Shown: one piece after another, positions 5,612-12,757 of the stretch
Layout of the letters: every line of letters starts with the position of its first letter
Numbering within the stretch: position 1 is the first letter of the stretch
Assembly: GCA_023621995.1 (NCBI GenBank)
Contig: JAMOAB010000149.1
Location: 1 to 58,297 of the forward strand
Direction: 5' to 3'
From: Bacillota bacterium
GTDB lineage: Bacteria; Bacillota; Clostridia; Caldicoprobacterales; Xylanivirgaceae
DNA length: 58,297 nucleotides
Notes under the pieces: model-generated
The model's database searches: none
Told to the model about the DNA's origin: nothing
Seen by the model: the letters and a program-made list of their open reading frames with translations, nothing else
Position numbers and translations under genes: made by a program

Positions 5612-6850
5612 CTACCTAATATTAGCCAATATATTAGTTAAAATTCTACCTGTAGCATTCTTAGGTAAGGGTATATCCATTGCATAACATATAGTGGGAA
5701 TAAAGTCTATATTATAGACCCTATCACTATATACAACGTTTCTTTTAAAGTCTGGTCCACTTAGAACTGCAAATATGTGTTGTGCTTTATCGTTAAGAGA
5801 ATCATGATTGGCCTTAAGTGTATAATGTCTATTCCTTTTAGTACTAAAATGATGGGGCGGAAATGGGGATATCAATATATCTGCAAAGAAATTTGCTGTT
5901 CCCCGCTCTTCCAGCTCCCTCTTAGTCATACATTTTTCAACAACATTCACTTTCTCTATTTCTCTCTTTATACAATCTAATTTTCTGTCTTCCATAGGTT
6001 CTCTAAAGTATAGCTGTAGTTGTATACTTGTTCCAACCATAATCACATCCCAATCTTCAGGTGGCAGCTCCCCTACATCAAGGGATAAAATCTTTTCAAA
6101 TCCCATATCTTCTAAAATCTCTATTATTCGATAGGTTTGCCCCTTACCTGTAAACGAAACCATACCATGATCAGTGGTCAAAAGTATGTTGGTTCTTTCA
6201 TATATGCCTAATTCATTAAGAAATTCTATAAATTCACCTAAACCTGCATCCATTTCTATCAAATGGGATATGACATTTTCAATGCGCCTTTTTTCAGAAA
6301 AGGCCTTAAACTTACCCCTGCCATACAATCTATTGTGTCCTATAGTATCTAGATCATCCATATAGATAAATAAGACCTTGGGCTTACATTCCATATTATT
6401 GCCTTTTAATATGGCCTTCGCCTCTTCAAATCTTTTACTATAATCTCCTTCTGGTTGTATATATAGATGACGTGTATTATTGCGATCTGCTCCTCTTCCC
6501 TCTAGAGTAAATTGTTGTATTGAGGCAAAACATATATTTTCCTCAGCTAATACCTCCCCTATGGTTTGACCTTCATTTGACCTCTTGCAAAGTACTACTT
6601 CATTTTTCCCTCTATCAAAATATTTATAGACATTTTTAGTTACATTAGAATATGCACCAGTAACTATGGCAGTTTGCATAGGACAAGTAATGGACGGTAT
6701 GCCTGTATAAGCGTCTGTAAATAATACACCATTCCTAGCTAGGGAATTTATATAGGGTGTACCCTTATATGGATATTCATTGGCTAATTTATAGTAATAA
6801 TAGCCAAATCCATCCCAGTTTATATATATAAAATACCTAGAACTGTCCAT
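5612..6850 (-). CDS. Type I phosphodiesterase/nucleotide pyrophosphatase family protein, cytoplasmic
   Basis: 412 residues from the ATG at 6850 (AGGGTGG 4 bases upstream; a TTG one codon earlier is too close to it). Counting from that TTG, the first metal Asp is in NWDGFG (residue 14) and the probable nucleophile is Thr56 in SITCPMQ, followed by VTG. Further metal ligands lie in DDLDTIGH, TTDHGM and near NHDSLND. There is no signal peptide, so it acts in the cytosol. The substrate is probably a phosphodiester or pyrophosphate brought in by the neighbouring importer (inference). With the secreted relative at the left edge and the PHP enzyme, three phosphoesterase-type proteins surround one transporter. 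The ROK repressor gene follows after a short gap and is probably co-transcribed. Confidence 0.8.
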   Translation of the reverse strand: MDSSRYFIYINWDGFGYYYYKLANEYPYKGTPYINSLARNGVLFTDAYTGIPSITCPMQTAIVTGAYSNVTKNVYKYFDRGKNEVVLCKRSNEGQTIGEVLAEENICFASIQQFTLEGRGADRNNTRHLYIQPEGDYSKRFEEAKAILKGNNMECKPKVLFIYMDDLDTIGHNRLYGRGKFKAFSEKRRIENVISHLIEMDAGLGEFIEFLNELGIYERTNILLTTDHGMVSFTGKGQTYRIIEILEDMGFEKILSLDVGELPPEDWDVIMVGTSIQLQLYFREPMEDRKLDCIKREIEKVNVVEKCMTKRELEERGTANFFADILISPFPPHHFSTKRNRHYTLKANHDSLNDKAQHIFAVLSGPDFKRNVVYSDRVYNIDFIPTICYAMDIPLPKNATGRILTNILANIR

Positions 6851-7044
6851 CAAACCACCCTAACTTATTCCAGTGGAAAAAGTAAGTCTATATAGAGTAT
6901 AACTTTAATAGTCAAGGATTGCAATATTTTTTACCTCTAGAAACACATAATGTGCAGCTATAAAAGATGTTTATTGTAGGTTTACTCGTGTTTACTGCTA
7001 TTTTGTCTGTTTTTTTACCTTATCTATATATGTCCCAATTAGCA

Positions 7045-7085: not shown

Positions 7086-8054
7086 TTACTTATTATATAG
7101 ATAACATGAAACAAAATGCCCATCACCTTGATCTACAAGCTCCGGCGTCTTTTCCCTACATATGGGCATTACATGTTGACATCTACCCTGAAACTTACAC
7201 CCTTCAGGAGGATTGATTGGGCTTGGCACATCTCCAGATAAAAATATTCTCTTTCTACTAGCCTCCACTTCAGGATCAGGGATAGGTATGGCAGACATGA
7301 GAGCCTGTGTATATGGATGGAGGGCATTTTTGTATAGCTCTTTACTTGGTGCCAACTCCACTATTGCACCAAGGTACATAACCGCCACTCTATCACTTAT
7401 ATGCTTGACCATACTAAGATCATGTGCAATAAACAGGTAGGTGAGGCCTAAACTCTCCTGCAACTCCTCCAAAAGGTTTACCACCTGTGCCTGTATGGAC
7501 ACATCAAGGGCAGATATTGGTTCATCGCATACAATAAACTCTGGTTCTATTGCAAGGGCCCTTGCAATCCCTATACGCTGCCTCTGTCCACCACTAAACT
7601 CATGGGGAAATCGGTTGGCATGTTCCTCATTTAGCCCTACCATGGACAATAATTCATATATCCTTGCCTGTCTATCACTTCCCCTATATAGCTTATGAAT
7701 ATCTATTCCTTCGGCTATGATATCTGCAACTGTCATACGGGGGTTGAGTGATGCATAAGGATCTTGGAATATCATCTGCACTTTTTTAGTATAATTTTGG
7801 GCCTCTTTTCTATCAAGTTCAGTTATATCCTTACCATCATAATAGATAGAACCTGCAGTAGGTTCATACAATTTTGTTATAACCCGACCTGTAGTAGATT
7901 TACCACATCCACTCTCGCCTACTAAACCGAATGTTTCACCTTTATATATATTAAACGATATATCATCAATAGCTTTCAAAGTCTGTCTAGGACCTACATT
8001 AAAGTATTTCTTGAGATTTTTAACCTCCAACAGAGGTTTCTTGCCACTATTCAA
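7086..8054 (-). CDS. oppF: Oligopeptide ABC transporter ATPase OppF
   Basis: 322 residues with the full nucleotide-binding set: Walker A GESGCGKST, signature FSGGQRQRIGIARAL, Walker B FIVCDEPISALD and the switch His in FIAHDLS. The C-terminal Opp/Dpp extension contains CKFQGRCQHVMPIC, a Cys cluster that can hold an iron-sulfur centre in this family. It pairs with OppD on the inner face of the membrane to energise peptide uptake. The start is a TTG that overlaps the end of oppD by 8 bases, with AGGAGG 8 bases upstream. Last gene of the operon, followed by the terminator. Confidence 0.9.
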   Translation of the reverse strand: MNSGKKPLLEVKNLKKYFNVGPRQTLKAIDDISFNIYKGETFGLVGESGCGKSTTGRVITKLYEPTAGSIYYDGKDITELDRKEAQNYTKKVQMIFQDPYASLNPRMTVADIIAEGIDIHKLYRGSDRQARIYELLSMVGLNEEHANRFPHEFSGGQRQRIGIARALAIEPEFIVCDEPISALDVSIQAQVVNLLEELQESLGLTYLFIAHDLSMVKHISDRVAVMYLGAIVELAPSKELYKNALHPYTQALMSAIPIPDPEVEASRKRIFLSGDVPSPINPPEGCKFQGRCQHVMPICREKTPELVDQGDGHFVSCYLYNK

Positions 8055-9066
8055 TTTTCATACCTCCTAATGGTCTCTCTACTTTAGGAGCATCAGGATG
8101 GGTGAGCCAACATGACACCTTATGGGTCTTTGAACAGCTCGTCATCTCTGGATGTTGCTCTTTGCATATGACCATCGCATATTTACATCTGTCTGCAAAA
8201 GGACAACCCTTAGGGGGATCCAACAGATCAGGTGGTGTACCTGGTATTGGTACTAGAGGTTTATCTTCTGCCATGTCAAGACGGGGCACCGATTCTAAAA
8301 GTCCCCAAGTATACGGATGATATGGGTCATAGAATATTTCATTTAAAGTTCCTGACTCCACAATTTCACCTGCATACATAACGTTTACCCTATCGGCAAT
8401 ATCAGCAACCACACCTAAATCATGTGTTATTAATATTATTGATGTATTCATCTTCTTCTGAATCGCCTTCATGAGATCTATTATCTGAGCCTGTATCGTC
8501 ACATCAAGGGCCGTTGTAGGCTCGTCAGCTATGAGGAGCATGGGGTTACAAGCAATCGCTATGGCTATCATCACCCTCTGCCTCATTCCACCGCTAAATT
8601 GATGGGGATAGTTATTAGCCCTCTTTCTTGCATTAGGTATCTCAACTAATTCAAGAATCCTTATAGCCTCTTCAAAGGCCTCCTTTTTCGATACATCCTT
8701 ATGACGCATAATCCCCTCCATTATCTGTTGGGAAATGGTCATAGTCGGATTTAAAGAGGTCATGGGATCTTGGAAAATCATTCCCATCTTTGAACCACGT
8801 ACCTCATTCATCTGTTTCTCGCTTAAGCTTATAATATCTATGCCATCAAATATTATACTGCCTTCTTTTATCTTGCCTGGAGGTGAAGGAATCAGCCTCA
8901 TTAGAGAGTGGACAGTTACACTTTTCCCACAGCCTGACTCTCCCACAATTGCAAGAGTCTCTCCTTTATTTACATGGAAGCTTACACCCCTCACCGCCTG
9001 CACTTCACCTGCATAGGTAAAAAACGAAACTTTAAGATCATTAACTTCTAATAATTTTTCTGCCAT
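8047..9066 (-). CDS. oppD: Oligopeptide ABC transporter ATPase OppD
   Basis: 339 residues from the ATG at 9066 (MAEKLLEVNDLKV), chosen over an in-frame start 42 bases upstream because AAGGTAGGTG precedes it and overlap with oppC is avoided. Walker A GESGCGKSV, signature FSGGMRQRVMIAIAI, Walker B LLIADEPTTALD and ITHDLG are intact. The C-terminal CPFADRCKYAMVIC is the Opp/Dpp Cys cluster. It forms the ATPase pair with OppF. Confidence 0.9.
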   Translation of the reverse strand: MAEKLLEVNDLKVSFFTYAGEVQAVRGVSFHVNKGETLAIVGESGCGKSVTVHSLMRLIPSPPGKIKEGSIIFDGIDIISLSEKQMNEVRGSKMGMIFQDPMTSLNPTMTISQQIMEGIMRHKDVSKKEAFEEAIRILELVEIPNARKRANNYPHQFSGGMRQRVMIAIAIACNPMLLIADEPTTALDVTIQAQIIDLMKAIQKKMNTSIILITHDLGVVADIADRVNVMYAGEIVESGTLNEIFYDPYHPYTWGLLESVPRLDMAEDKPLVPIPGTPPDLLDPPKGCPFADRCKYAMVICKEQHPEMTSCSKTHKVSCWLTHPDAPKVERPLGGMKIE

Positions 9067-9079
9067 GTCTACACCTACC

Positions 9080-9997
9080 TTAATTACGCAACTTAGGATC
9101 GAGGGCATCCCTTAGCCCATCACCCAATATATTAAATGATAGCATGGTCAAAGATATCATTACAGCAGGGAATATTAGCATCCATGGCCTTTCCACAACT
9201 TGCTTAATGCCATCGCTTGCAAGACTACCCCAGCTAGCATTTGGCAACTTGATTCCAAGCCCTATATAACTTAAAAATGCTTCACTAAATATAGCACCAG
9301 GTATATCCATAGTCATCTGCACAATCATAATACCAAGAATATTTGGAAACATGTGTTTGGTAATTATGCGCCACGGACTAGCTCCAAGTGTCTTTGCAGC
9401 AAGTACAAATTCTTGATTCTTAAGCTGAAGTACTTGCCCCCTAACAAGACGAGCAGTACCCACCCAGCCAGTTATAGACATGGCTATAATAAGGGTGAGT
9501 TCCCCCGGTTCCATGAGTATCATAAGAAGTATTACAATTATCATATAAGGTATACCATATAATATATCTACTATTCTCATCATTATATCGTCAGTTCTTC
9601 CTCCGAAATATCCTGATATACCTCCATATATCATACCAACTACAATATCAATAAGTGCAGCAAAAAAACCTATCCTAAGGGATACGCGGGCACCCATCCA
9701 CACACGTACAAATAGATCTCTCCCAAGATCATCAGTTCCAAACCAATGGTCTTTGCTAGGAGGACTAAATATCTCCATATAGTCCTGCTCATCAAAGGTA
9801 TATGGCCTTAGATAGGGACCTATTATAGCCATGATCACTATTCCAATGAGTACATACAGACTTACCATAGCTAATTTATTCATCTTAAGACGTCGCCATG
9901 CATCTTGCCAGTAAGTGAGGCTAGGTCTCGTTATCCTCTCGCTATCCTCTATATCCATTCCAATTGGTTTAAATTTTTCTAGCTCTATTGCCGACAC
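9080..9997 (-). CDS. oppC: Oligopeptide ABC transporter permease OppC
   Basis: 305 residues beginning with GTG (AGGAG about 11 bases upstream). A cytoplasmic N-terminal tail with YWQDAWRRLKMNKLAM leads into the first helix. The HWFGTDDLGRDLF motif is typical of OppC/DppC, and the binding-protein-dependent transport signature (AAKTLGASPWRIITKHMFPN) is the ATPase-docking loop. It forms the membrane channel with OppB, encoded 7 bases upstream. Normal length and no defects seen. Confidence 0.92.
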   Translation of the reverse strand: MSAIELEKFKPIGMDIEDSERITRPSLTYWQDAWRRLKMNKLAMVSLYVLIGIVIMAIIGPYLRPYTFDEQDYMEIFSPPSKDHWFGTDDLGRDLFVRVWMGARVSLRIGFFAALIDIVVGMIYGGISGYFGGRTDDIMMRIVDILYGIPYMIIVILLMILMEPGELTLIIAMSITGWVGTARLVRGQVLQLKNQEFVLAAKTLGASPWRIITKHMFPNILGIMIVQMTMDIPGAIFSEAFLSYIGLGIKLPNASWGSLASDGIKQVVERPWMLIFPAVMISLTMLSFNILGDGLRDALDPKLRN

Positions 9998-10004
9998 CTA
10001 TCCA

Positions 10005-10934
10005 TCACTCCTTTCGCTCAACTAATGTAATTCTTGGATCGACAATTCCATATAATATATCTACTATAAAGTTCATAGTTACCAAAATCAAAGAATAAAA
10101 TAGTGTGAGTCCCATAATCAAAGTATAGTCGTTTTGATTTACACTAGATACTAAAAACTGGCCCAGACCTGGTATGGCAAATATATTCTCAACTACAAAC
10201 GTTCCTGTAGTGATACCTGCAACCAAGGGTCCTAATATGGTCACAACGGGAAGTATGGCATTTCTTATACCATGTCGCCATACCACAGCCCTCCTAGGTA
10301 AACCTTTAGCTTTAGCAGTCTTTATATAATCTTGATTTAATACATCTAACATGCTAGTTCGCATCATACGGGCCATTACAGCCAAAGTGCCTAAACCCAA
10401 GGCAAATGATGGTATTACAGTATGTTTAAAGCTTTCCCACCCTGTTACAGGAAACAGCCTGAGCTTTACACCTACAAAGTATTGTAGTAGACCTCCAATT
10501 ATAAAGCTTGGTACCGATACGCCAATTACTGCAATTATCATAGATACATAGTCCCATGTCTTACCATGGTTGACTGCAGCAATGATTCCCAAAAAAAGCC
10601 CAGCTATCAAGGCAAATGAAAGGGCTCTCAAGCCTAATGAAGCAGAAATGGGAAAACGTTCTTTTATTATGCTTCCTACACTCCTGTGTTTATGGACCAT
10701 AGACATTCCTAGATCGCCTCTTAGCAAGTTTTTCATATATATTACATATCTCTCATGTATTGGCTTATCAAGTCCATATTTTGCTTCCATATTCTTCCGA
10801 ATCTCTTCTGGTATAGGTTTCTCACCGGTAAATGGCTTACCTGGCATTAAATTCATTAGTATAAAGGTAACTGTGGCTATTATAAATAGAGTAAATATTG
10901 AATGTAGAAATCGCTTGCCTATATAACGTCCCAA
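10005..10934 (-). CDS. oppB: Oligopeptide ABC transporter permease OppB
   Basis: 309 residues, six predicted transmembrane helices. The N-terminus (RFLHSIFTLFIIATVTFILMN), the LMPGKPF segment and the docking loop (YIKTAKAKGLPRRAVVWRHG) followed by VVENIFAIPGLG are characteristic of OppB/DppB. It is the first of the four membrane and ATPase genes downstream of oppA, separated from oppA by a 182-base gap containing a hairpin. Confidence 0.92.
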   Translation of the reverse strand: MGRYIGKRFLHSIFTLFIIATVTFILMNLMPGKPFTGEKPIPEEIRKNMEAKYGLDKPIHERYVIYMKNLLRGDLGMSMVHKHRSVGSIIKERFPISASLGLRALSFALIAGLFLGIIAAVNHGKTWDYVSMIIAVIGVSVPSFIIGGLLQYFVGVKLRLFPVTGWESFKHTVIPSFALGLGTLAVMARMMRTSMLDVLNQDYIKTAKAKGLPRRAVVWRHGIRNAILPVVTILGPLVAGITTGTFVVENIFAIPGLGQFLVSSVNQNDYTLIMGLTLFYSLILVTMNFIVDILYGIVDPRITLVERKE

Positions 10935-11116: not shown

Positions 11117-12730
11117 TTATTCAAGTCCCAATTCTTCTATGCCTTTTTCTAAGCATTTCTTAGCTGTTTTAATATCATAATCTTGGAATAGGTCGCCTAC
11201 TTCTTCTCTAAAGGAACCAGATTTACCAGGCATAACTGGTGGAACAAATCCTAGCCCTACCTTAGAATCATCTTGGAGTATCTTCTCTACGAAAGCCTGT
11301 CTGTTTATTGAATAGGTAAGGGCTTTACGGATATTCTCGTTTGCAAGGATTTCATCTTCTAGATTAAAGAGGAAGTACCAAGATGAACCGTCGGCATAGT
11401 GTAGAAGCTCATAGCCTTCCTTCTTAACTTGCTCCTTCTGGTCACCACGTACACCGACAATGTCCAAGCCGCCTGTCAGGAATTCATTTAAAGCTGAGTT
11501 AGCATCTTTTATCATGAGACCTTCTATAGTCTCAAGTTTTATCTCATCTGCATTCCAATAATCAGGATTCTTCTTTAGAACTACTTTAGAATCGTGATCC
11601 CAAGTAGTCATTACAAAAGGCCCATTGTATATCATCTTGTCTGCTTCAGATGCATATTTGTCACCCACTGATTTATGGTACTCCTCATTGAGTGGCATAA
11701 AAGTTCCAAATGCTACTAGAGTATCGAAGAAAGGTGCAGGCAGAGCAAGTCGAACTTTTAAGGTAGTATCATCTACAGCCTCTACTCCAACATCATCTAC
11801 ACTAGCCTCGCCGTTATAGTATTCTTCTGCATTCTCAATGTAATATAGAATGTATGCATACTGGGAGGCAAGTTCTGGATCTAGTGCCCTCTTCCATGCA
11901 TATTCAAAGTCGTGGGCAGTTACAGGTTTACCATCACTCCACTTTGCATCATCCCTGAGGTTGAATGTCCACTCTAGACCATCGTCAGATACTTCCCAAT
12001 CCTTGGCCATACCTGGCATTGCTTTTCCTTCTTGATCTAATCTTGTAAGGCCTTCAAAAGTATGCCCTAATAGCTGGAAGGAAACTGTATCTGTTGTAGT
12101 CTGAGGGTCCATATCTGGGGGCTCAGTTCCTATATTGAAAGTAATGCTATCACCGTCTTCAATAGATGCCCAATAAAAATCAGGATCTGGAGCAAATGCT
12201 CGCCTTACTTCTCCCTGTAGTTTAGGATTTTTAATATAGTCTCTGTACCTAAAATAGATAGGCCCAATAGCCATGTCTTCTATGAGTATCTTCTCTGCCT
12301 GAGCCATAAGGTCCATCCGCTCGTCGTTATCTGGACTTGCCTTTGCCTTGGCAATGAGTTCATCATACTCAGGATTTGCATAACCACCTTCGTTAAAGGG
12401 ACCATCTGTTACCCACATGTCCATAAATGTCATTGGGTCATTATAGTCAGGACCCCATCCAGCCATTACAATCTGGAAATCACCCTCCTGAGTACGCTGT
12501 AGTCTGTCCTTAAAGGTTGTGCTGTCTATCTCCACTTTTATACCTAATTCTTTCTGCCACATACCTTGAAATGCCTGTGCATAGCGTTTTGCAGTATCGC
12601 TATCGTCGGTCAATATCTTAAGTGTGGGCAGTTTTGACGCACTACCTTTATCGGAACAGCCAGTAAATGCAACACTAGCTAACAAAACTGTGGCTAAAAG
12701 TAGTGTGATTAACTTTTTACCTCGTTTCAA
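11117..12730 (-). CDS. oppA: Oligopeptide-binding lipoprotein OppA with circularly permuted mature domain
   Basis: 537 residues from a TTG start (GGAGGAG 10 bases upstream). Residues 1-25 are a lipoprotein signal (FTGC, Cys25). The order of the rest is unusual. Residues 34-191 (LPTLKILTDDSDTAKR through GWGPDYNDPMTF to FYWASIE) correspond to the C-terminal third of a normal OppA/DppE. Residues 192-537 (DSITFNIGTEPPDMDPQ, WSDGKPVTAHDFEYAWKR, YNGPFV, up to EKGIEELGLE) correspond to its N-terminal two thirds. The end of the protein would join smoothly to residue 34. All family segments are present once, the frame is open throughout and total length is normal, so the protein may fold: the normal ends of this family lie close together in domain I. 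It is the peptide receptor for OppBCDF. Confidence 0.88.
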   Translation of the reverse strand: MKRGKKLITLLLATVLLASVAFTGCSDKGSASKLPTLKILTDDSDTAKRYAQAFQGMWQKELGIKVEIDSTTFKDRLQRTQEGDFQIVMAGWGPDYNDPMTFMDMWVTDGPFNEGGYANPEYDELIAKAKASPDNDERMDLMAQAEKILIEDMAIGPIYFRYRDYIKNPKLQGEVRRAFAPDPDFYWASIEDGDSITFNIGTEPPDMDPQTTTDTVSFQLLGHTFEGLTRLDQEGKAMPGMAKDWEVSDDGLEWTFNLRDDAKWSDGKPVTAHDFEYAWKRALDPELASQYAYILYYIENAEEYYNGEASVDDVGVEAVDDTTLKVRLALPAPFFDTLVAFGTFMPLNEEYHKSVGDKYASEADKMIYNGPFVMTTWDHDSKVVLKKNPDYWNADEIKLETIEGLMIKDANSALNEFLTGGLDIVGVRGDQKEQVKKEGYELLHYADGSSWYFLFNLEDEILANENIRKALTYSINRQAFVEKILQDDSKVGLGFVPPVMPGKSGSFREEVGDLFQDYDIKTAKKCLEKGIEELGLE

Positions 12731-12757
12731 AACGAACCAACTCCTCCATTTTTCTTA

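Follow-up and report, generated by a model that had tools for sequence, protein, structure and literature searches.

A circularly permuted OppA-type lipoprotein encoded in a Bacillota opp gene cluster, and permuted relatives that point to recurrent rearrangement at two loops

Natural circular permutation is usually regarded as a rare one-off event that is inferred between distant relatives, and its known cases include concanavalin A, swaposins, DNA methyltransferases, and RsgA-type GTPases. Periplasmic binding proteins have also been circularly permuted by design to make biosensors, which shows that such proteins generally tolerate new ends. The closest described counterparts of the protein analyzed here are the OppA and DppE proteins of family 5 (cluster C), such as B. 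subtilis OppA (8ARE) and DppE (8AZB). In OppA-type proteins, lobe 1 consists of domain II and of domain I, which is built from three pieces and holds both chain ends, and lobe 2 is domain III, comprising residues 297 to 582 in AliD (PMC11192437). Two hinge strands connect the lobes, as described for EppA (PMC7312458), and the W-x-x-D motif of AliD (W498 and D501) clamps the amino end of the peptide (PMC11192437). In the domain-swapped dimer of pneumococcal AliC, lobes exchanged at the hinge still form the same clamp (PMC11192437).

We analyzed a 58,297-nucleotide stretch of DNA from a Bacillota bacterium (here called the window), in which positions 11117 to 12730 encode an OppA-type lipoprotein with its blocks in a different linear order. 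Our main reading, to which we assign a probability of about 0.87, is that this is a real, naturally permuted OppA that acts as membrane-anchored substrate-binding subunit for the OppBCDF importer encoded next to it and that arose via tandem duplication, fusion, and loss, a change that recurred at two loops (A and B). The features of the locus are as follows.

5612-6853, minus strand: type I phosphodiesterase/nucleotide pyrophosphatase-like gene, immediately downstream of oppF in the same orientation
7086..8054, minus strand: oppF, ATPase (Pfam ABC_tran, oligo_HPY)
8047..9108, minus strand: oppD, ATPase (Pfam ABC_tran, oligo_HPY)
9080..9997, minus strand: oppC, permease (Pfam OppC_N, BPD_transp_1)
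10005..10934, minus strand: oppB, permease (Pfam BPD_transp_1, BPD_transp_1_N)
11117..12730, minus strand: oppA, circularly permuted; open frame of 537 amino acids with a TTG start and a TAA stop
11120..12157, minus strand: residues 192-537, the N-terminal block of ordinary OppA (domains I and II with the initial portion of domain III; phmmer, and model residues 192-537 on 8are 18-363, Z 33)
12158..12631, minus strand: residues 34-191, the C-terminal block of ordinary OppA (latter portion of domain III, after which the chain returns to domain I; contains W92 and D95; phmmer, alignments, PMC11192437)
12632..12655, minus strand: residues 26-33, short tether from the lipidated cysteine to the first block (read from the sequence)
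12656..12730, minus strand: residues 1-25, lipoprotein signal peptide with the lipobox AFTGC at residues 21-25 (sequence inspection)
12741..12747, minus strand: ribosome-binding site GGAGGAG (read from the sequence)

The secretion signal and the lipobox were recognized by eye, and the 3' end of the gene reads EELGLE followed by a clean TAA. Pfam SBP_bac_5 (PF00496) was matched in two stretches with 313 bits (cut-off, 32.4), and the NCBIfam OppA equivalog NF011684 gave 264 bits, which is below its curated whole-protein cut-off of 947. In a phmmer comparison with B. subtilis OppA (8are_A), residues 195 to 536 aligned with chain positions 21 to 362 (288 bits) and residues 30 to 175 with positions 364 to 510 (91 bits). 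These two stretches tile the ordinary protein in swapped order, with the cut at 362/364 and without gap or overlap, and the second block of the window protein starts at residues 192 to 195 (DGDS). The full set of OppA family blocks is present, one copy of each, and only their linear order is not the ordinary one. Judged by its sequence, the window protein is a permuted variant of the family, and its homology to SBP_bac_5 is unaffected. Homologues of both orders align completely once rotated, as is the case for natural permutants. The preliminary description had proposed a circular permutation with residues 34 to 191 placed first and residues 192 to 537 last, and the swapped, tiling phmmer stretches confirm this order; the single-copy blocks, the open frame, and the block boundaries given there were likewise recovered from the ORF, Pfam, and phmmer data. 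The first block did not match the N-terminal region of OppA but its C-terminal part, chain positions 364 to 510. Pfam and similarity scores look normal for such a permuted OppA, and annotation pipelines miss the permutation.

The window protein thus has the Pfam family, the blocks, the ligand motif, and the oppBCDF linkage of OppA and DppE, but it differs from them in block order and in the predicted position of the chain ends and the lipid anchor, which would now be in lobe 2 and no longer in lobe 1. The ordinary ends, both in lobe 1, would be joined via a linker of a few residues, and the new ends would be opened in a surface loop of domain III (lobe 2), between a helix ending in ELG(L/Y) and the strand LPTLKIL. 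In the structural alignment, the last residue of the model (537) pairs with residue 363 of 8are and with about residue 358 of 1ola, so that the break falls well inside domain III, as had been claimed. The permuted chain would probably still adopt the two-lobed clamp of the family. An AlphaFold model of the window protein (pTM, 0.74; mean pLDDT, 75) had low confidence at the new junction (residues 175 to 189) and at residues 93 to 115. Its residues 192 to 537 superposed on OppA/DppE at Z ~33, the sequential structural alignment (VIA-align) covering the second block only. W92 and D95 correspond to W498 and D501 of AliD and were invariant in all 20 of the 20 permuted proteins aligned. The AliC swap differs from the case in the window in that it is a three-dimensional exchange between two ordinary-order chains without any gene rearrangement, whereas here the gene itself is permuted.

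The permuted order was also found in other genomes. Single colinear alignments over residues 31 to 537 were obtained with G003 (64% identity) and with G119 and the one-contig genome G065 (60% identity), and near-full-length permuted homologues with 41% to 50% identity occurred in families f134 (five genomes), f196 (two), and f177 (two). The one-contig genome G587 is among those that carry permuted homologues of other families at 40% to 50% identity. Contigs of Candidatus Fermentithermobacillaceae, a Limnochordaceae bacterium, Mageeibacillus, and further Bacillota metagenome-assembled genomes also carry the permuted order, and these homologues sit within or next to opp operons. The dN/dS ratios between close pairs of permuted genes were 0.02 to 0.05, showing that the permuted protein is maintained by selection. 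The permuted order is inherited by descent and is under purifying selection.

In the window, the permuted oppA lies directly upstream of oppB-C-D-F, a linkage also seen in relatives, and it occupies the customary first position of the oppABCDF cluster as its sole binding-protein gene. Its product is most likely the working peptide receptor of the adjacent importer; a peptide would be caught by its amino end through W92 and D95 and then passed to OppBC. The same genome encodes three further family-5 binding proteins, on other contigs, that are less than 35% identical to the permuted OppA, and two of these contigs carry their own OppD-type ATPase.

The possibility that the permuted gene is an assembly or binning product, an ordinary gene rearranged in silico, comes to mind because the window genome is a draft of 175 contigs, but it can be given next to no weight. 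The order is kept at 38% to 64% identity across many independent assemblies, some of them single contigs, the signal peptide is joined in frame to what is mid-protein in ordinary OppA, a stop codon follows right after the new end, and the gene region at 11117 to 12730 contains neither Ns nor repeated 15-mers hinting at a collapsed repeat. Relatives with the same order, which the preliminary description had proposed to look for, thus refute the artefact. A real protein could still have left peptide import for sensing, a chaperone function, or adhesion, with ordinary binding proteins feeding the transporter, and the three other family-5 proteins and the two other OppD-type loci of this genome would be consistent with such a shift. 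We consider this quite improbable, since those proteins are distant and placed on other contigs, the opp cluster contains no second binding-protein gene beside the permuted one in first position, and the permuted protein has retained the ligand-anchoring W-x-x-D motif.

To locate the break, each ORF was aligned to a doubled copy of an ordinary-order sequence, which resolved two breakpoints. Break A, the form of the window gene, is at native position about 337 to 347 of 504, inside lobe 2 and ahead of LPTLKIL. Break B is at native position about 268 to 270, ahead of a helix with the pattern N.R.A(I/L)...D+ and just past the first hinge strand, and is carried by L042:1138-2793, L070-L084, L150:875-2515, L198, and L199; L128, the 5' end of which runs off its contig, is of the break B form by block order. 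In family f59 (L042 and L070-L084), break B was present in 20 of the 71 genomes, including the one-contig genome G830, with as many as seven matching copies in one genome, some of them arranged in tandem. The preliminary description had also suggested an altered linkage between the lobes. This is not supported for break A, where a cut within domain III would retain both lobe-to-lobe crossovers, but it fits break B, where the lobes would be covalently joined by the second hinge strand only. A model of the break B protein L150, built from a two-row alignment, reached a pLDDT of only 42 and a pTM of 0.35, too low for the model to be used.

We also searched 398 genomes from the phylum and 321 from the class with a profile built on the junction of the ordinary ends, a feature that permuted proteins share whatever their breakpoint, and every intact spanning match that was classified there belonged to break A or break B. 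Each breakpoint falls at nearly identical residues throughout its clades. The breakpoints tended only weakly to lie in the most indel-rich loops: break B ranked among the top 16% of windows and break A among the top 33%, too slight a tendency to count as evidence. Two candidates were rejected: L056 had appeared permuted in the doubled-reference test because its alignment had run into the signal region, and the spanning match in G783 consisted of two adjacent genes with three stops between them.

Trees were built on sequences rotated into the ordinary order (151 rows, or 99 rows under a mixture model). Break A proteins formed three separate clades and break B proteins two or three, a further tree with L198 and L199 having been built for break B, and every one of these clades was nested within ordinary OppAs. 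In AU tests on quick trees, with groups chosen once the order was known, a single clade was rejected for all break A proteins (p = 4e-48), for the window clade together with the Fermentithermobacillaceae clade (p = 1e-71), and for the break B proteins (p = 2e-4). Trees of the N-block only and of the C-block only agreed with each other, indicating that both blocks of a permuted protein derive from one parent lineage. The place in the operon also varies by clade. The permuted gene opens the oppABCDF cluster in both the window clade and the Fermentithermobacillaceae clade, is convergent to oppBCDF in the Mageeibacillus clade, and follows oppF at L150, L198, and L199.

The closest pair of different order was the permuted L199 (G441:C58) and the ordinary L034 (G027:C245), the proteins of which are 73% identical over 483 columns in ordinary order. 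Both genes occupy the same position after oppF, in different genomes, and the DNA of the two loci is ~70% identical across oppF and across the largest OppA segment, and 64% identical across the other segment. This pair appears to represent a fairly recent circular permutation. On the trees, OppA appears to have been permuted several times independently, at the two loops A and B, and the window gene, which the preliminary description had taken for a single oddity, is one of at least five or six cases of independent origin.

The same distribution could also have arisen if each breakpoint was created once, long ago, and reversions or recombination with ordinary genes came later. The constancy of each breakpoint among its clades would agree with this history, and parsimony counts alone cannot separate gains from losses. 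We nevertheless regard it as unlikely: monophyly of either breakpoint group is rejected, the N- and C-block trees are concordant, operon contexts differ among the clades, L199 and L034 combine different orders with 73% identity at the same operon place, and a reversion must restore the ordinary ends each time, which seems far less likely than repeated permutation. A related question is the route by which each permutation arose. The most likely one is a tandem duplication of oppA, followed by an in-frame fusion of the C-terminal end of one copy to the mature N-terminal end of the next; the outer parts would then have been lost and the signal peptide retained. This route is favoured because tandem oppA copies occur in many relatives. 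In addition, both blocks of the window protein share the same nearest ordinary relatives. The linker that joins the old ends consists of only a few residues of a VEDGDS-like sequence (IEDGDS in the window protein). Duplication and loss as proposed in the preliminary description are plausible, although the intermediate stage of the scheme was not seen, no fused double-length OppA having been noticed among the ORFs listed. Because no search recovered such an intermediate, we also considered a fission into two genes that were re-fused in the other order, or a C-terminal segment that had moved alone. This is doubtful given how common tandem oppA copies are among relatives, and no free-standing half genes were seen beside opp operons, the apparently split gene of G056 having a 2-base N gap at its junction. 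Tandem duplication, fusion, and loss is thus the route that we prefer.

Both the protein family and natural permutation as a phenomenon are already known, and the surprise is the recurrence within one family at two loops. Searches of open-access literature for circular permutation combined with OppA or with solute- or peptide-binding proteins, and broader searches as well, turned up no account of an OppA permuted in nature, which is weak evidence of absence. The window OppA resembles other natural permutants in having its ordinary ends joined, new ends in a loop, and a fold that is expected to be kept. However, it is unlike them in being a secreted binding protein of an ABC transporter, in the recurrence of the permutation at two loops, and in the occurrence of both orders at the same operon place. 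It also differs from the engineered permutants, which are designed, in that permuted OppAs are natural and under selection.

One possible, still tentative, explanation of the recurrence is that permutation at the same two loops is useful, that is, a recurrent and selected retuning of the binding protein. If so, break A, by placing the anchor and chain ends on lobe 2, or break B, by leaving one hinge strand as the only covalent link, would alter permease docking or hinge motion and, through these, the peptides taken up. Alternatively, the recurrence may reflect only tolerant loops and frequent tandem copies. With several apparently independent permutations, two fixed sites, a clear job, and both orders found down to 73% identity at the same operon place, the OppA family makes several questions accessible to experiment: the origin of permutations, the kinds of loop that accept new ends, and the roles that the pair of hinge strands and the site of the lipid anchor play in ABC importers.

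Three loci deviated from the forms described above. A split two-gene form considered for L011 (G056:C153) was rejected on account of the 2-base N gap, which lies exactly at the junction (locus positions 613 to 614) with the permuted oppA blocks in different frames on its two sides, and it is probably an assembly gap. L055 (G762:C1:903823-905460), from a single-contig genome, is a permuted oppA with one in-frame TGA, which could reflect decay, a sequencing error, or recoding. Finally, L030:747-3024 (G051) encodes an ordinary OppA-type protein with ~250 additional residues on the N-terminal side.
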